Assembly: GCA_015232455.1 (NCBI GenBank)
Contig: JADFZQ010000004.1
Span: 62,001-126,000, forward strand
DNA length: 64,000 bases
Origin: Desulfamplus sp.
Lineage (GTDB): Bacteria > Desulfobacterota > Desulfobacteria > Desulfobacterales > Desulfobacteraceae
Direction of reading: 5' to 3'
In this document: one piece after another, positions 23,251 through 32,592 of the stretch
Numbering within the stretch: the first letter of the stretch is position 1
How the letters are laid out: every line of letters starts with the position of its first letter
Program-made: the position numbers and the translations under genes
Notes under the pieces: generated by a model
What the model was told of the DNA's origin: nothing
Seen by the model: only the letters and a program-made list of their open reading frames with translations
The model's database searches: none

Positions 23251-23263
23251 TGACCAACGGTCA
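23251..23263 (-). promoter_or_regulatory. SECIS-like hairpin downstream of UGA 23281-23279
   Basis: On the minus strand a TGACC / GGTCA stem closes a GTT loop. Twenty bases separate the UGA from the loop. A short loop starting with G at 16-37 bases is the known bacterial selenocysteine insertion pattern. It lies past the TAA that ends the read-through form. Confidence 0.55.
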
Positions 23264-23269
23264 AGTTAT

Positions 23270-23644
23270 TTATGGCGGTCAACCAAATGCTGCAAGGATA
23301 TTATAAGAGCCTCGATTTGGCAGAGGTTTCCATACAGTAGAGTTATTCTGAACAGGTGCATTAAATGCTGCTGGGTGATAAAGAAGAGGTTGTGTCCCCA
23401 TTCCCGGCTTCCACTCCTGAATATTAAACAACTGGCTGAACTTTGCTGCAACGTATGCCTGCGGGCTATCAGGTTTCTCTTTTTCACGATTATATACAAT
23501 CATGAGTATAATAACTACGCAAAGAAACACTGTGCCGATTATAGCCCACATTGAAGGTTCACCCATCTCTTGTTCAGGCTTGTTTTTCTTAGATTTTGGC
23601 TGAATTATCTCATCTATATCGTCAAATATTTCATCATCTATCAT
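23270..23644 (-). CDS. Predicted selenoprotein, single-TM magnetosome-cluster protein
   Basis: I place the start at the ATG at 23644 (MIDDEIFDD) with GGAG upstream, overlapping the NapH-like gene by 11 bases; a longer frame to 23749 has less support. The conventional product is 121 residues. It has an acidic/basic N-terminus, one membrane helix (about 33-52), then a soluble domain ending NILAAFG at a UGA (23281-23279). Reading the UGA as selenocysteine adds U-Pro-Pro before TAA at 23272-23270. The same LAA-x-G-UGA-Pro-Pro context occurs twice in the gene at 24577-25176, each with a hairpin at the same distance. Function unknown; a redox or metal-binding C-terminal Sec is inferred. Confidence 0.65.
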
Positions 23645-24494
23645 TTTTATAATAACTCCATTTTCTATCCAATGGAAACGGTGTGCATACCTTGACATGA
23701 TTGCATCTTGTGCATTCAAGGCAGCGGATACACTCTCCTGAATTTCCATCTATGGAAACATTTATATCAACAGGACAAATATCTTGACAGATATTGCAGC
23801 CATCACACCCGTTACCCACTTCAAGCCGAACCATACTGTATTTGTTAAACAGAGCAAGAATAGCCCCCATTGGACAGGCAACTCTGCAAAAAGGTCTTTT
23901 TGTTAAAACAAAAAATATCAGAAACACGATCATAACAGTTAAAGAGACAAAAAACATAATCCCTATACCAGTTGGAAAGACATGCTGCCCAGTTTGTGGA
24001 TTTATAGGATTCCACAATGCCCACGGAATTCCAGCCATAAGAGTGCCAGCAGGACAAACTTTTGAAAATACAGTTTCTGCTGTTAAGTAGGGAAGAATTA
24101 TAACCATCACCAACAGCACTGCATATTTAAAATATTTGAAGTATCTTGGTATTTTAAGTTTAGGTGAAGGGATTTTGTAGATAATATCTTGAATAAACCC
24201 AAACGGACAGAGCCATCCACAAGCCATTCTGCCTACACTGAGTCCCACAAGAGCAATAAATCCGATAAGATAATAAGGAATCACACGAATGGTCATAAAA
24301 TGCTGCAACGTCCCAATAGGGCATGAAAAGATTGCTGAAGGACATGCGTAACAGTTTAAAAAAGGGACACATACACCTTTAAGCGGACCTGTGGCTATAT
24401 TCTTTGTGCCTAATACACTCACATAGCTGTTTGAGAGTATTGTGCTTGCAAGCTGCATCAGTTGTCTGGTTTTAGAAAGAATCATATCAAACAC
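23634..24494 (-). CDS. NapH/NosR-type membrane polyferredoxin
   Basis: A 286-residue membrane protein with about five helices. It has the CxxxCP-type motifs of the family (CYACPSAIFSCPIG near 48, GWLCPFGF near 92, CRVACPMGA near 200) and two [4Fe-4S] motifs near the end (CDGCNICQDICP, CIRCLECTRC). NapH-like proteins pass electrons from quinol across the membrane to periplasmic partners. Here it could feed magnetochrome proteins or a selenoprotein that sets the Fe(II)/Fe(III) balance. It starts at GTG 24494 or ATG 24485 and lies between the two predicted selenoprotein genes. Confidence 0.82.
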   Translation of the reverse strand: MFDMILSKTRQLMQLASTILSNSYVSVLGTKNIATGPLKGVCVPFLNCYACPSAIFSCPIGTLQHFMTIRVIPYYLIGFIALVGLSVGRMACGWLCPFGFIQDIIYKIPSPKLKIPRYFKYFKYAVLLVMVIILPYLTAETVFSKVCPAGTLMAGIPWALWNPINPQTGQHVFPTGIGIMFFVSLTVMIVFLIFFVLTKRPFCRVACPMGAILALFNKYSMVRLEVGNGCDGCNICQDICPVDINVSIDGNSGECIRCLECTRCNHVKVCTPFPLDRKWSYYKNDR

Positions 24495-24576: not shown

Positions 24577-25176
24577 TTAAAAAAACGTTCTATTGTTTCC
24601 TGCCATGCCTCCAGCTTGGCCTCCGGGAGGCGGTCAGCCACCGGCTGCAAGAGCTAAACTACTATTTGCCCCTGTGCTGTGAAACTGCATAATCTGGTCT
24701 CCTAAAGGACAAACAGGCGAACCAGTAGCGTTAAACTGTGGAAGTCCAACAGCTCCATGAACAGGACATACATACTGCCCTGAGATGCTGTTGGTTTGTG
24801 CAGATATACCATTTGAGAACGGTTGGGACTGAACAACCTGCTGCTGATAAGGCTGCATCTGCTGTTGGTAGGGCTGCACTTGCATTTGCTGATAAGGCTG
24901 TATTTGCTGCTGAAATTGCATTGGTTGTTGATATGGCATAACTGTTGCTGCATCTACCACTCCTCCTGCTCCTGCCTGACCTCCGGTCTGGCCTGTTGGG
25001 GGCGGTCAACCAACTGCTGCAAGCATCAAATCTGATGCAATCTGAACATTTTTATTCCACGAATCAAATCCAAAAATCAGCCAGTAGAGCATAGTGGTTA
25101 AAAGTGCAACCACCATAACCAAACCCGCAAACCATGCAAATTTCTTAAAATTAATATCCAAATAATCTTCAAGCAT
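24577..25176 (-). CDS. Predicted double-selenocysteine magnetosome-cluster protein
   Basis: The ATG at 25176 (GGAG upstream) opens a 56-residue reading frame with one membrane helix (about 12-36) ending LMLAAVG at UGA 25008-25006. The same frame runs on without another stop through PPPTGQTGGQAG, a Gln/Pro/Tyr-rich repeat region and a CPVHG...CPLGDQ segment. It ends LALAAGG at a second UGA (24636-24634), then PPPGGQAGGMAG and TAA at 24579-24577. Reading both UGAs as selenocysteine gives one 199-residue protein. Each UGA is followed by a hairpin with a GGA loop after exactly 21 bases. The conservative alternative is two genes, 25006-25176 and 24634-24960 (GTG start). Function unknown. Confidence 0.62.
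24602..24620 (-). promoter_or_regulatory. SECIS-like hairpin downstream of UGA 24636-24634
   Basis: On the minus strand GCCA pairs with TGGC, then an A-A mismatch, then GCT pairs with GGC (one wobble), closing a GGA loop at 24612-24610. The loop starts 22 bases after the UGA. The hairpin lies in the coding tail. Confidence 0.58.
24974..24992 (-). promoter_or_regulatory. SECIS-like hairpin downstream of UGA 25008-25006
   Basis: On the minus strand GCC pairs with GGC, then an A-A mismatch, then GACC pairs with GGTC, closing a GGA loop at 24984-24982. The loop starts 22 bases after the UGA, as for the second UGA. Stem, mismatch and loop share the same architecture although the stem sequences differ. 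Confidence 0.62.
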
Positions 25177-25913: not shown

Positions 25914-25958
25914 TTATTATTATACCTTAAAGGGTTACCCTAACCCAATACATGACGT

Positions 25959-26069
25959 TCAAAGGGTGGCTCCATTTTGCCATGTCTCAACAAATTCCCC
26001 TGTAACAGCTCCAAAAACAAGCATTGCCAAAAACAGGGCGGCAATAACCATTTTAAGTGAAATCTCCAT
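25959..26069 (-). CDS. Tiny single-TM peptide of the magnetosome operon
   Basis: A 36-residue reading frame: MEISLKMVIAALFLAMLVFG forms one membrane helix and a short hydrophilic tail (EFVETWQNGATL) follows. GGGAT lies upstream. It fits between the pseudoprotease gene (stop 26092) and the PIN gene. Small one-helix proteins are common in magnetosome clusters, but this one is unrecognised and could be non-coding. Confidence 0.5.
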   Translation of the reverse strand: MEISLKMVIAALFLAMLVFGAVTGEFVETWQNGATL

Positions 26070-26091: not shown

Positions 26092-27054
26092 CTATATATT
26101 GCTGTTGATAAAATTCACAATATCGTTAATCGGAATGGCAAAACCAATGCCCGCATACTGATTGTCAGGCATAAAAGTTGCCATGTTTATTCCAATAACT
26201 TCCCCCTTAATATTAACAAGGGGACCGCCATCATTGCCCTGATTTATAGCCGCATCTGTCTGGATCATATCAGGGTATCTTACACCGTTAATACTTAGAT
26301 TTCTGTTGTGGCTGCTCACAATCCCCATTGTTACTGTTTGAGAGAATCCAAATGGACTGCCGATTGCAAAAACAATATCACCAACCTCAACAAGATTGGA
26401 ATTTCCAAGCACAACCGCAGGAAATACGCCCTGTGATCTCAATTTTAAAACCACAAGATCAGTTGCCTTATCCACAGCAATAACATCAGCCTGATAACTC
26501 TGCTCTTTTCCTGAAAAGAGCTTTACATTGACCACTGTATCTGTGCCTACAGTCTGAAATGTGGTCAAAATATATCCTCGTGGATCAATAATCACCCCAG
26601 AACCCTCTGAACGTGAACCAGATTTAAAAGATGGAATATAAGAGAGTCCGCCATTATATGCTGGTGTTTGGGCTGCATTACTCTGCTGGGAAGCTCTTGG
26701 ACGAGAGACTCCAACAACTGATGGTTTAATCATGGAGACTACATGGCTGATTCCCTCCTGAACCATAAGAGCTGTTATTGGTGCAGAGCTGCTGTTTCCT
26801 GAAGATGTCATGGATTGCATTTGATTGCCTGTGCCATTCATAGAATTAGGAGAATTCATTAAAGCACCATTGTTGATCATAGGAGATGCTCCTGTATTCT
26901 GATTCAGCAAAGCAGGATTCAGATTTTGATTTCCTCCAACTGATCGATTCAACATAAAGTCAGCATTTGTCCATACAGCTCCAATAACAAGGATAGCGAT
27001 AACAGCCGTTACCCATATCATGTTGTTTATCTTAAAATTTCTATTTTTCTTCAT
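26092..27054 (-). CDS. MamE/MamO-type trypsin-fold protein with degenerate active site
   Basis: A 320-residue membrane-anchored HtrA/DegP-fold protein. A helix lies at about 12-31, a low-complexity Asn/Ser/Met linker follows and the protease fold starts near 125. In place of the catalytic His the motif reads YILTTFQTV, and in place of GNSGG it reads NQGNDGGP. His and Ser are therefore replaced by Gln and Asp while the DLVVLK Asp stays. It cannot be an active serine protease as read. MamO of alphaproteobacteria is a known pseudoprotease that promotes crystal nucleation, so a similar scaffolding or metal-binding role is likely. No PDZ or TauE domain is attached. Confidence 0.8.
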   Translation of the reverse strand: MKKNRNFKINNMIWVTAVIAILVIGAVWTNADFMLNRSVGGNQNLNPALLNQNTGASPMINNGALMNSPNSMNGTGNQMQSMTSSGNSSSAPITALMVQEGISHVVSMIKPSVVGVSRPRASQQSNAAQTPAYNGGLSYIPSFKSGSRSEGSGVIIDPRGYILTTFQTVGTDTVVNVKLFSGKEQSYQADVIAVDKATDLVVLKLRSQGVFPAVVLGNSNLVEVGDIVFAIGSPFGFSQTVTMGIVSSHNRNLSINGVRYPDMIQTDAAINQGNDGGPLVNIKGEVIGINMATFMPDNQYAGIGFAIPINDIVNFINSNI

Positions 27055-27075: not shown

Positions 27076-29109
27076 TTAAAAAACCCTTAAAATCATCCAT
27101 ACCCCAACTACACTTAGAACAAATGCAAATATAAACCTGAGAAGATGGCTTTGTGTGCCGCTGGATATTCTTGAACCAATCTGGGCACCCACAACAGTTA
27201 TTGCAGAGAGAGTTATTGCAAGCCTAATGTCAAAGTTTCCAGCAAGGCTATGACCTAAAAAGCCTGATAAGGCGGTAAGAGGAACCATCAAAGATGCAGT
27301 TGCAATTGCAATTTTCATTGGAATATTTAACATTAAAACCATAATTGGTATCTTTATCCAACTTGCTGCAAGACCAAGTAAACCACCAAAAAAACCTGTG
27401 ATAAGAGTAACTGGAATAGTGAAGCCAAGGTCAATGTTTACACTACGTCCTTTAAAATCATGCTGCCATTTAAAAGGGCTTATTGATATACGTCTTCCAC
27501 TGCTTCCATCTCTGTTTTTTATATAAGAATCCTTCATCATTGTATAACTTGCAATAAACAAGGTGCATGAAAACATTATTGAAAGTGCATCAACATTAAA
27601 GTGGTGGGCAACCATACCACCTATAAATGCCCCAACCATAGTTGGTGGTTCAAGCACCAATGCAAGCCTTAAATCAACAAGACCTGATTTGGAAAAAGTG
27701 TAGAGTGCTGATATTTGTGATAAAGTTATCATCATTAAACTTGTTGAAGCTGCTGTATAAAAATCAATGCCGCATGATAATAAAAGTGGAACATATACAA
27801 AACCGCCGCCAAGTCCTAACATTGAAAAGATAATTGAAGCAACAAAGGTCATAAGCCCCAATTTAAGAATAATAGTGGTAAACAGAACTGAAAATGTTTC
27901 ATTAAGAGTTGAAAAAGCAGCTTTTGGCACATCAGCTAATTGATTAACAGATTGATTGATGGAGTTGTTAAAAGATTGATTCATCAAGCCGCCGCCAGCT
28001 ATCGGAACAAGAGGCGATACCAGAGGCGTATCTACAACAGCGATTGGAACTGTTGATGCCACAGGCACAGGTCCCTGTGTAACAGGATCGTTTGTGAGAA
28101 TATGGCAGACATCACAAGAGCCGACAGGCGGGTGAGGCATAGGGGTTTTCATGCTTACCACCATCTTTTGGGTTATGGTGTGGCATGTTGTGCAGTCTGA
28201 AAATTTTTGATGAATTGCATCATTTGGCATTTTTTTATTCAGATTTACAGGCTCTTTAGGCTGAGTCGGCTGCGGATTGGCTGTAGTCTGTGTTGTTGCT
28301 GCTGCTGTGATTATCGCCCCTGTTACTCTTGAGAAAAAATGTTTGGTTCTGTTTATGGGAATTGCAAACCCAATACCCCTGTAAGTTCCCTCTGGTGCAT
28401 ATATTGCTGTTCCAACTCCAACAACTCTTCCATAAATATCAATTACAGGTCCACCGCTGTTGCCTTCGTTTATAACAGCATCTGTCTGAATCATATCCTT
28501 GTATGTAACACCATCAATAACCATCTCCCTGTGAAGATCGCTGACAATACCCATAGTTACTGTGTGGCTGAATCCAAACGGACTTCCAATACATACTACA
28601 TAATTACCACTCTTGAGCGACTCTGAATTTCCAAGCTCTGCTGCTGGAAAATTTTGGGGTGCTGAAAGAACTTGAGCAGCTTGCAAACTCTGATTGGTCT
28701 CTATTTTTAAAAGAGCAAGATCAAGACCGTGATCCTCATCAACTATTTTTGCAGGAAATATATTATTGTTAGAACGCCACAACGATATTTCAATATTTTG
28801 AGAATCGTTTACAACGTGGCGGTTTGTTAAAATATATCCTCTGCTGTCAACAATAAATCCTGAACCAATACTCTCAAACCAGACAAAATCATTCTGACCT
28901 CCTCCTGATGCCTGCTGTTTTTTCTGTGCCTTTACGCTTACAACAGATGGACGCACCTTTGACACAGCCTGACTTATGCTCTCCTGGAGATTGAGAAGCA
29001 TTGCATCGCCTGTGCCTGTGTAAGCCCAACTCTTTCTCAGGCTGCCCTCAAGCATCTGTGCAAAAATGGCTGAAATTATTGTTAGTGTTATGATTATCAG
29101 TTTTTTCAT
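27076..29109 (-). CDS. mamEO: MamEO-type fusion: HtrA protease, magnetochrome and TauE permease
   Basis: A 677-residue fusion. A signal/anchor helix lies at 1-20. A serine protease domain (about 35-275) has an intact triad: TNRHVV, DLALLK and GNSGGP. Two magnetochrome CXXCH sites follow (CTTCH near 311, CDVCH near 337), which should bind c-type haem in the magnetosome lumen. The last 270 residues form a TauE/SafE-type membrane domain with about eight helices (GLGGGFVYVPLLL). MamE is the protease and MamO the TauE carrier in other species, so this gene combines both. It likely regulates and perhaps oxidises iron during mineral growth. The ribosome site is weak. Confidence 0.8.
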   Translation of the reverse strand: MKKLIIITLTIISAIFAQMLEGSLRKSWAYTGTGDAMLLNLQESISQAVSKVRPSVVSVKAQKKQQASGGGQNDFVWFESIGSGFIVDSRGYILTNRHVVNDSQNIEISLWRSNNNIFPAKIVDEDHGLDLALLKIETNQSLQAAQVLSAPQNFPAAELGNSESLKSGNYVVCIGSPFGFSHTVTMGIVSDLHREMVIDGVTYKDMIQTDAVINEGNSGGPVIDIYGRVVGVGTAIYAPEGTYRGIGFAIPINRTKHFFSRVTGAIITAAATTQTTANPQPTQPKEPVNLNKKMPNDAIHQKFSDCTTCHTITQKMVVSMKTPMPHPPVGSCDVCHILTNDPVTQGPVPVASTVPIAVVDTPLVSPLVPIAGGGLMNQSFNNSINQSVNQLADVPKAAFSTLNETFSVLFTTIILKLGLMTFVASIIFSMLGLGGGFVYVPLLLSCGIDFYTAASTSLMMITLSQISALYTFSKSGLVDLRLALVLEPPTMVGAFIGGMVAHHFNVDALSIMFSCTLFIASYTMMKDSYIKNRDGSSGRRISISPFKWQHDFKGRSVNIDLGFTIPVTLITGFFGGLLGLAASWIKIPIMVLMLNIPMKIAIATASLMVPLTALSGFLGHSLAGNFDIRLAITLSAITVVGAQIGSRISSGTQSHLLRFIFAFVLSVVGVWMILRVF

Positions 29110-31017: not shown

Positions 31018-32592
31018 TCAGTATAATACTTGAGGTTGAACACTTCCGTTAGCTCCCCCTGAATATGGATATGGGGAGGGATTTATAATCTGTGTTGATG
31101 GCATTGCTGCTGGCTGCATAGTTGAAGATGGTGCAATGTTTAAAGGTATTAAATATCCAGACATATAAGAGTTTAAGATATTTTGAACAGAACCTGTAAG
31201 ACCCGGATAGACATTCACCATCAAAACATGAAACGCATTAAGAGCATCTTGGGTAAAACTTCCTGCAATCACATTGCTTACATGCAGATCAACCATGTAT
31301 TGTGCGGTCTCAACCCCTTGACCAAACAGATCGTTTACATTTGGGTTTGTTGACACACTGTAACTATTTTGTGCTGGATCAAAGACCACAAAATATGGGC
31401 TGTTTTCAAATTGAGCTGAAATCTGATAAACAATTCCAGGTCCTGTTGATGCTACAGCAACTTTGCCGAAATTCAGGTTCGCCACAACCCGGGCTTGTTG
31501 TCCCTGCCCCTGTTGAGTTTGTCCTTGCTGCTGTGCCTGAAGAGCCTGCGTTACTGCCTGCTGGGTCTTTGGAACTCCAAGCTGTTCGGCTAAAGTCTCC
31601 ACCTGATTCTGGGTCATTGGAGCTGCCTGAACACCGCCGCCTTGCATCTGCTGACCACCTTGCTGAATTTGCTGCTGTCCTTGACCGGCAGCTTGCTGAT
31701 GCAAACCCTGCTGCTGTCCAACACCACCCTGTTTGGCTTGCTGTGCTTGAAGAGCCTGTGTAACAGCCTGCTCTGTCTTTGGGACTCCAAGCTGTTCGGC
31801 TAAAGTCTCCACCTGATTCTGGGTCATCGGGGCTGTAGCCGCTGCTGCCATTGCTCCATTTGAATTAATAGACGGAAGTTTAAGAAAAACGCTTCTCTGT
31901 TTTTTACCTGTGTAAATGGTCATCTTAATTTCACTGCCGGCTTTTGCAGCACTCAAAGCCCTGTCGAAATCGTTTAGTGTCTCCTGACGGACTTTATCAA
32001 TTCTTATTATTTCATCACCTTTTTTAAGACCTGCCGCACTTGCAGCAGAATTTGGGGCAACTTCTGTGATAAGAAGTCCATCTTCATTTGCAAGTCCCAT
32101 GCTTTTCATCATTGCTGCTGTTACAGGCTGTAATGCAAGACCAAGAGTTTTTGGGGAAAACTGATTAAAAGCTGCCGGCTGATTTGGATTATTTGCATTA
32201 CCACCGTTATTGTTTGCTGCTCCATTTGCAGGAGGCTGAAATCCATCTGTAACTTTATGACACAATAGGCAGTTACCCCAATAATCATGCAGCATTTTAT
32301 CGTTTATTGATATGGGAGGACCCGCCATTACTTGAGAAACCGGCTTGCCGGCATCTGTAGTTATATGACATTTATTGCAGTTACCCCAGTAAGGGTGCAG
32401 CATCTTATCATTAACCTTTATCGGAGGTCCCATAGGCTGGACTGCTGCTGCCATTCTGAAATCTCTCATGTGCGGAGTTCTTGTGCAGTGGTATCCTGTC
32501 CACCCAAGTACAATCACTAAAAGAACTGTAATGCCGACAATTGCCATTTTGAACTGGCTCATGCAAAATTCATATTCAATATTGTTTTTCAT
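31018..32592 (-). CDS. mamP: MamP-like protein: two magnetochromes, PDZ and NifX-like domain
   Basis: A 524-residue protein. The membrane anchor lies at about 15-33. Two magnetochrome motifs follow, HPYWGNCNKCH and HDYWGNCLLCH, in near-identical tandem contexts. A PDZ domain lies at about 150-235, then a Gln-rich region with a duplicated 32-residue block, and last a NifX-like domain (about 365-480). PDZ plus two magnetochromes defines MamP, an iron oxidase that balances Fe(II) and Fe(III). Here the haem sites precede the PDZ, the opposite of the alphaproteobacterial order. ATGs further in (residues 11 and 16) are alternative starts. Confidence 0.72.
   Translation of the reverse strand: MKNNIEYEFCMSQFKMAIVGITVLLVIVLGWTGYHCTRTPHMRDFRMAAAVQPMGPPIKVNDKMLHPYWGNCNKCHITTDAGKPVSQVMAGPPISINDKMLHDYWGNCLLCHKVTDGFQPPANGAANNNGGNANNPNQPAAFNQFSPKTLGLALQPVTAAMMKSMGLANEDGLLITEVAPNSAASAAGLKKGDEIIRIDKVRQETLNDFDRALSAAKAGSEIKMTIYTGKKQRSVFLKLPSINSNGAMAAAATAPMTQNQVETLAEQLGVPKTEQAVTQALQAQQAKQGGVGQQQGLHQQAAGQGQQQIQQGGQQMQGGGVQAAPMTQNQVETLAEQLGVPKTQQAVTQALQAQQQGQTQQGQGQQARVVANLNFGKVAVASTGPGIVYQISAQFENSPYFVVFDPAQNSYSVSTNPNVNDLFGQGVETAQYMVDLHVSNVIAGSFTQDALNAFHVLMVNVYPGLTGSVQNILNSYMSGYLIPLNIAPSSTMQPAAMPSTQIINPSPYPYSGGANGSVQPQVLY
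31535..31836 (-). repeat. Duplicated 32-residue block in the MamP-like protein
   Basis: Two copies of a segment containing APMTQNQVETLAEQLGVPKT, roughly at 31540-31625 and 31755-31835, are separated by a Gln/Gly-rich spacer. They differ at only one or two residues. This is an internal duplication with unknown effect. Confidence 0.85.

Follow-up and report, generated by a model that had tools for sequence, protein, structure and literature searches.

Genes and in-frame UGA codons at the locus

The window, i.e. the whole stretch of 64,000 nucleotides of Desulfamplus sp. DNA that was analyzed, carries on its reverse strand a row of magnetosome-type genes, three of which contain in-frame UGA codons. 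These three are named here after the selenocysteine (Sec) reading that we favor. The features are:

23251–23263, minus strand: hairpin of UGA 3, TGACC-GTT-GGTCA, 20 nt past UGA 3 and 3' of the TAA stop (untranslated); taken singly p 0.114 against shuffles
23270–23749, minus strand: third Sec gene, after the NapH-like gene, with the end ...ILAAFG-UGA-CCG-CCA-TAA; start uncertain
23279–23281, minus strand: UGA 3, AAFG-UGA-Pro-Pro at the end of the third gene
23634–24494, minus strand: NapH-like 4Fe-4S membrane protein, labeled Mad6; TIGR02163 63.8 bits (below the cut-off of 213), Fer4_5 above cut-off
24577–25176, minus strand: double-Sec gene, 199 residues if read through; long N-terminal helix (transmembrane), Gln-rich linker, small CPxHG..CPLG knuckle and Gly/Pro-rich Sec tail
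24602–24620, minus strand: bSECIS-like hairpin of UGA 2, GCCAAGCT-GGA-GGCATGGC, with an A-A mismatch and 21 nt spacing
24634–24636, minus strand: UGA 2 (putative Sec181), context LAAGG-U-PPPGGQAGG; tail UGA present in 17/17 copies found
24974–24992, minus strand: bSECIS-like hairpin of UGA 1, GCCAGACC-GGA-GGTCAGGC, with an A-A mismatch and 21 nt spacing
25006–25008, minus strand: UGA 1 (putative Sec57), context LAAVG-U-PPPTGQTGG; confined to Desulfamplus-type homologues
25932–25946, minus strand: bSECIS-like hairpin of the mini gene, GGGTTA-GGG-TAACCC, spanning its TAA stop; the 45-nt fold reaches only -6.6 kcal/mol
25935–26069, minus strand: mini UxxC gene, 44 residues with one hydrophobic stretch and the end ...FVETWQNGATL-U-TSCIGLG-TAA; distant relative of the CD1871A family CXXC proteins
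25959–25961, minus strand: UGA 4 (putative Sec37 of the mini protein) in a UxxC motif; UGA in 16/16 double-Sec genomes
26092–27054, minus strand: HtrA-type protease resembling MamE/MamO, immediately 5' of the mini gene; NCBIfam MamE 185.9 and MamO 86.9 bits (cut-offs of 800, both missed), Trypsin_2
27076–29109, minus strand: MamE-like protease with a weak magnetochrome match (16.8 bits, below cut-off) and a C-terminal TauE/SafE sulfite-exporter domain (PF01925, 146 bits)

An actin-like (MreB_Mbl) gene was found in the neighborhood by profile. Several genes of the window are what we take to be MamK, MamB, MamM, MamP, MamL and Mad6, these labels being our own and resting in part on place and family.

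The frame of the double-Sec gene starts with ATG at 25176, 5' of which lies AAGGAGA resembling a ribosome binding site, and runs to TAA at 24579–24577 with UGA at 25008–25006 and 24636–24634 as its sole interruptions. A sequence-only reading of this region had claimed the frame with its coordinates, both UGAs and 199 residues, the contexts LAAVG-UGA-PPPTGQTGG and LAAGG-UGA-PPPGGQAGG, and two hairpins with an A-A mismatch and a GGA loop; all of this held, the first base of the loop lying 22 nt past the UGA in each case. Its inference that the two apparent small genes are one 199-residue selenoprotein is supported by computation, with no peptide and no selenium label. Two more such UGA sites in the operon, at 25961–25959 and 23281–23279, went unnoticed in that reading, and its claim was too narrow: no fewer than three of the operon's genes have the appearance of selenoprotein genes.

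Taken singly the hairpins of UGA 1 and UGA 2 are modest in comparison to 200 dinucleotide shuffles (p 0.040 and 0.045), and the 45 nt from UGA 2 fold most stably in another pairing, not the GGA hairpin. We consider the observation to stand above chance because UGAs and frame are conserved in relatives, not on the basis of single-hairpin statistics.

Conservation of the gene cluster

The order of MamO-like, mini, double-Sec and NapH/Mad6-like gene is found in 13 of 14 relatives, our own genome and G464 not being counted. The exception is G193, with the double-Sec gene in front of MamB and the mini gene at a contig end. Where the stretch reaches far enough the flanks also keep their order, with MamB, the gene at 31018, MamP and MamE upstream and the third gene, MamL, MamM and MamK downstream. 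Exceptions are the lack of a separate second MamE-like protease in G132, G156 and G393, of MamK within the 40 kb taken from G061, and of the third gene in G193. The double-Sec gene thus holds a conserved place among magnetosome-type genes. This supports the earlier assignment to a magnetosome operon, the localization of the protein itself at the magnetosome being unproven.

Selenocysteine machinery and use of UGA

The genome that contains the window on contig 44 (4.35 Mb, 98.5% complete) carries a tRNA-Sec with anticodon TCA (74.4 bits, cut-off 47), selB (369 bits, cut-off 242) and selA (594 bits, cut-off 268). Absence of selB or selC had been named as an observation that would refute a double selenoprotein; with tRNA-Sec, selB and selA present this reading is not refuted. 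Only scores over cut-off were counted, because the tRNA-Sec and selB models match 14/14 control genomes at E 0.001. The sample comprised 16 genomes, 14 of them with the double-Sec gene (L015 and L016 lie outside it). Among these 14, tRNA-Sec exceeded the cut-off in 12, selA in 12 and selB in all 14. No tRNA-Sec over cut-off was found in G329 and G338 and no selA in G393 and G464, all four genomes being 62–89% complete.

In G393 ARAGORN reported two tRNA-Sec genes of 74 and 58 bits, the lower-scoring of which is next to a second selB, and in G464, where selA was likewise not found, a 58-bit tRNA-Sec lies beside a partial selB (L124 2395–2487, L125 3317–3414, L126 1559–1651). These oddities could possibly stem from contamination, from bins that are incomplete or from an additional Sec system.

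UGA is not reassigned and serves as an ordinary stop elsewhere in the window: among the 20 window ORFs examined TGA ends nine, including the MamK-like and NapH-like genes. The sole tRNA-Trp seen has the anticodon CCA, although no full tRNA census was made. Rfam yielded no match and ARAGORN no gene on the window. A blind scan of the window for conserved in-frame UGAs returned many matches. Judged by eye, these reflect either genes read in another frame or the normal ends of genes, and on this assessment 25961 and 24636 alone are conspicuous outside the genus. Across the own genome the pattern A-x-G-UGA-(n)C(n)CC occurs at nine places, three of them in this operon, and a reversed control pattern at two. 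At the six places outside the operon no more than 32 codons are open before the UGA.

The double-Sec gene in related genomes

We searched for the double-Sec gene in 389 genomes of the order (14 matches, two discarded as chance), 395 of the phylum (five matches) and 389 of the class (13 matches). These sets overlap, and a protein search of genome contigs added four loci (L013–L016). L016 and G769 were counted as one genome on account of equal coordinates. In total we found 17 copies in 16 genomes of eight families, every copy with one to three UGAs, which amounts to 32 UGAs. Two UGAs are present in the own gene, G192, G338, G329, G035, L015, G132, G085 and G156, three in G193, G068 and G061, and one in G039, L016, G393 and both copies of G464. 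In the six Desulfamplus genes UGA 1 is one of the two. L016 lacks the first UGA through a deletion that keeps the frame intact.

The 32 sites passed a filter demanding G or A before the UGA and xP, AT or AV after it. Most are followed by x-P, giving a GGU-xPP-like tail, with ATA (G061), ATP (G132) and AVP (G035) as exceptions. This tail recurs in tandem with UGA every time in G068 (GGGUVPPTTGPGG..GGGUVPPTMGPGG..GGGULPPTMGPGG), G193 and G061. A TGA following the last tail motif (G035 MNPF-TGA, G039 LVQ-TGA, G193 GAAP-TGA) was taken as an ordinary stop and is not among the 32. The matches in G072 (E 0.0036 and 0.0061) and G165 (E 0.0090) were those discarded as chance, their own frames being unread. 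The second copy in G464 (L052, on contig C28) has one tail repeat with Arg, GMGRLPPGG, where others have UGA.

Both UGAs are kept in the five relatives that could be aligned over the full gene (G192, G338, G329, L015 and G035). In comparison to G192, G338, G329 and L015, pN lies between 0.00 and 0.13 and pS between 0.15 and 0.50 in each of the three segments bounded by the UGAs, the short segment after UGA 2 contributing 2–8 changes per comparison. For G035 both values are high (0.41 and 0.62 after UGA 2) and the sequences are too diverged to tell. Purifying selection before, between and after the UGAs is thereby shown for four of five relatives. Homologues ending at the UGA would have spoken against a single protein; conservation continues past it in the same frame, and this check did not refute the reading either. 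A sequencing error as source of the UGAs was ruled out because the same UGAs recur in separate assemblies.

The alternative that the UGAs are real stops separating two or three unrelated small genes, or marking a decaying gene, can draw on the use of UGA as a stop elsewhere in the window, on a GTG at 24960 that could open a second frame and on a conserved ATG in the 18-codon piece after UGA 2. Against it stand the conserved frame past the UGAs with pN below pS and the tail codon, which is UGA in all 17 copies from 16 genomes with no Cys codon, UAA or UAG found at the motif, and which reappears as UGA in each of the tandem tails. We regard real stops as very unlikely. Cys homologues, another check proposed earlier, were not found in the double-Sec family, so that this gene itself lacks the most telling kind of evidence; an exchange between Cys and Sec is seen in the neighboring UxxC gene.

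Cysteine and UGA alternate in the mini gene

The mini gene matches 37 of 38 positions of the model for CD1871A family CXXC motif proteins (NF040920) and shares its C/U-x-x-C-I-G end. The score of 19 bits (E 0.00093) does not reach the curated cut-off of 32, and the versions from magnetosome clusters differ from the family in having UGA at the first Cys. Matches at E ≤ 0.1 were obtained from 98 of 395 phylum genomes, many of them weak. Loci were taken for the best 30 only, 25 of which are more distant; 24 of these gave the motif (L064 showed none and was left out). The position of the UGA is occupied by Cys (TGT or TGC, in CLSCIGIG and similar ends) in 20 of the 24 and by TGA in the other four. 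With UGA in 16 genomes as opposed to Cys in these 20 distant homologues, the mini gene displays the kind of Cys/Sec exchange that a selenoprotein should show. The four distant homologues with UGA for Cys (L065, L069, L073 and L080) also have hairpins with GGG-type loops and are further likely selenoproteins in a CD1871A-like group.

A NapH-like Cys signature, identified by pattern and not by profile, lies within 1.5 kb downstream in 22 of the 24 distant homologues. For this reason the mini gene and the NapH-like protein seem to be a long-standing pair that the double-Sec gene joined later. Between the mini and double-Sec genes of the window a PIN-like toxin/antitoxin-like gene pair was recognized by eye (25913–25256, minus strand); it looks inserted, as only about 110–170 nt separate the two genes in L013 and L014.

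A third gene with a probable Sec tail

The third gene probably starts near 23644, because the 5' part of the frame overlaps the NapH-like gene. Its Sec tail was read in 6/6 Desulfamplus genomes and in 0/7 homologues from other families; no match to the gene was obtained in G193, G464, G362 and G372. The versions of L015 (AAGG-U-PPPVGQAGGMAGQRNLFF) and G035 (AAGG-U-VPPTGSAGGRTGNSGIFF) end in a complete tail that resembles the one of the double-Sec protein. Where the tail is short (own, G338, G192 and G329), the hairpin lies wholly past the stop codon, so that it cannot have been kept for protein reasons. The Sec tail of the third gene was likely gained as a module.

The third gene of G061 (L094/L053) encodes a knuckle, CPTHG..CPIC, that resembles the one in the double-Sec protein, and its product is matched by the double-Sec profile at E 3e-6. 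Knuckle and profile match tie the third and double-Sec proteins together, suggesting shared modules.

Hairpins at UGA sites

According to a 2026 review (PMC13188914) a bSECIS element has a loop of 3–9 nt, a stem of 4–16 bp, G in the first two loop positions and a spacing of 16–37 nt, with an energy limit of -7.5 kcal/mol. Our scan used a script that imposed these shape rules, allowed one mismatch and accepted -3 kcal/mol or better. A fitting hairpin was found at 55/55 distinct UGA sites with a spacing of 16–24 nt, as opposed to 4/20 Cys sites and 1/20 ORF ends of the window (p 2e-11 and 3.5e-6 for UGA sites against controls). These p-values are overstated because many of the 55 sites come from related genomes and are not independent; four stem from distant mini homologues, and the mini site of G193 was not scored. 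The 20 ORF-end controls were chosen by the analyst. Double-Sec sites look richer in G+C than these ORF ends, which makes the comparison of UGA and Cys sites within one gene family the fairer one. Considered one by one against shuffles, 27/58 UGA sites reach p 0.05 (double-Sec 13/32, third gene 3/6, mini gene 11/20) in comparison to 1/20 Cys sites.

The stem bases vary while pairing is kept, from GC-rich stems to an AT-rich stem in G061 that overlaps the stop codon. Among 28 distinct hairpins each of the inner three pairs takes five base-pair types, and arms mixed between sites pair at 58%; the 100% of the true arms is given by construction. Counted alone the own hairpins have energies of -8.3, -7.2, -4.1 and -5.1 kcal/mol, and many hairpins miss the limit of -7.5 kcal/mol. 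The own 45-nt folds reach -12.6, -13.0, -13.4 and -6.6 kcal/mol, the last value belonging to the mini site and failing the limit, and the fold at UGA 2 being a pairing other than the GGA hairpin.

Readthrough of UGA as Trp, Gly or Cys, by a suppressor or a reassigned code, would also conserve the frame, and Gly would fit the Gly-rich motif. This explanation is opposed by UGA being a normal stop elsewhere, by the CCA anticodon of the one tRNA-Trp seen and by the tRNA-Sec and selB carried by these genomes. It is further opposed by the alternation of UGA with Cys codons in the mini gene and by the hairpin that accompanies UGA and is mostly absent with Cys. Insertion of another residue is therefore very unlikely. 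We conclude that the UGAs of the operon are very likely decoded as selenocysteine, on computational evidence and without protein, RNA or selenium data.

Predicted proteins and a possible redox role

SelB and tRNA-Sec would decode each of the four UGAs with the aid of the hairpin, whose loop follows a spacer of 18–21 nt. If the four UGAs are Sec codons, the operon therefore makes a double-Sec membrane protein, a 44-residue UxxC membrane protein and, in Desulfamplus, a third Sec-tailed protein.

No Pfam, NCBIfam, PHROG or PDB-sequence match was found for the own double-Sec protein (E limits 0.1, 0.1 and 0.01) or for a profile of ten sequences. AlphaFold2, supplied with ten sequences, gave a model with a mean pLDDT of 56.5, including a helix at residues 10–55. 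Residues 131–170 with the Cys knuckles have a mean pLDDT of 70–79, and the segments that hold the UGAs (56–91 and 169–199) stay below 50. Foldseek against the PDB returned nothing significant for this model; the best hit was superoxide reductase at E 2.1, with desulforedoxin and zinc-finger pieces ranking lower.

The position of the UGAs would also be compatible with selenium-sensitive switches, in which selenium yields the full protein, lack of selenium leaves a truncated membrane stub without Sec tail, and the switch is the function. UGA 1 directly follows the N-terminal helix, so that a stop there leaves a bare anchor, and UGA 2 and UGA 3 lie near the C terminus, where a stop costs only the tail. 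Such an argument is unspecific, as it holds for any selenoprotein gene, and homologues outside Desulfamplus lack UGA 1; we consider switching as the function very unlikely.

Lys residues precede the hydrophobic helices, and from this charge pattern we infer that both Sec ends likely face the lumen enclosed by the magnetosome membrane. A protein with a membrane anchor, a Cys knuckle and a flexible Sec tail, and with a UxxC membrane peptide and an Fe-S protein as neighbors, suggests electron or thiol/selenol transfer across this membrane. In the proposed mechanism the Sec proteins and Mad6 would form a selenol/thiol electron relay at the magnetosome membrane, the flexible Gly/Pro tail would act as a mobile redox arm, and the relay would set the redox state of iron or sulfur inside the vesicle. 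Mad6 of Desulfovibrio magneticus RS-1 consists mostly of a NapH domain, and a mad6 mutant had a limited magnetic response, redox functions having been suggested (Rahn-Lee et al., PMC4287615). The paper lists DMR_41030 (mamL), DMR_41040 (a mamI homologue), DMR_41050 (mad6) and DMR_41070 (mamO); judged from this numbering alone, DMR_41060 would occupy the double-Sec position and DMR_41040 the position of the third gene. The Mad6/NapH-type Fe-S protein is a direct neighbor of the double-Sec gene, and NapH-like frames also follow the distant homologues of the mini gene; it would be a partner of the double-Sec protein and does not belong to the same family. A redox relay with Mad6 is inferred from neighbors and motifs only, and we see slightly more reason to doubt it than to accept it. 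Taken as a whole, four Sec codons, selenoproteins and a redox role are likely the best explanation, for which protein evidence is lacking.

Relation to known selenoproteins and significance

The sites share with bacterial bSECIS selenoproteins (PMC13188914) the in-frame UGA, the G in the first two loop positions, the spacing of 16–37 nt and the presence of SelA, SelB and tRNA-Sec in the genome. They differ in that several hairpins miss -7.5 kcal/mol and in the repeated Sec of a disordered Gly/Pro tail, which is absent from the review's table of 119 selenoprotein families, as are both the double-Sec and the mini family. According to the same review only a small subset of selenoproteins contains two or three Sec. 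Its main text contains neither "magnet" nor "CD1871A". A flexible C-terminal segment also carries the Sec of selenoprotein P, where there are several, and of thioredoxin reductase. These proteins belong to other organisms and have a GCUG motif as opposed to GGUxPP here; no sequence comparison was made. No report of a magnetosome selenoprotein was found in the literature searched (titles and starts of abstracts), and papers outside it could differ; PMC12805115 refers to selenocysteine only in tRNA counts that include Sec. As far as this literature goes, the double-Sec protein is an apparently new family with up to three Sec on a flexible tail.

A bolder reading is that the GGU-xPP tail is a transferable selenium cassette, copied between magnetosome proteins in Desulfamplus, that makes contact with the mineral as it grows. 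Selenolates repeated along a disordered arm in the lumen would bind iron (or Fe-S) at the surface of the crystal or reduce it there. We hold this reading to be unlikely; if it were true, magnetosome formation in Desulfobacterota would depend directly on selenium.

If the Sec reading is correct, standard stop-codon reading cuts short or misses two or three selenoproteins in the magnetosome clusters of Desulfobacterota. One of them would represent a family with tandem repeats and as many as three Sec in a single protein. Selenium would then join the redox control of biomineralization, the chemistry of which is open. A requirement for a matching SelB would be a possible reason for failure of the cluster in hosts without it, and selenium supply would become a testable variable when culturing these bacteria.
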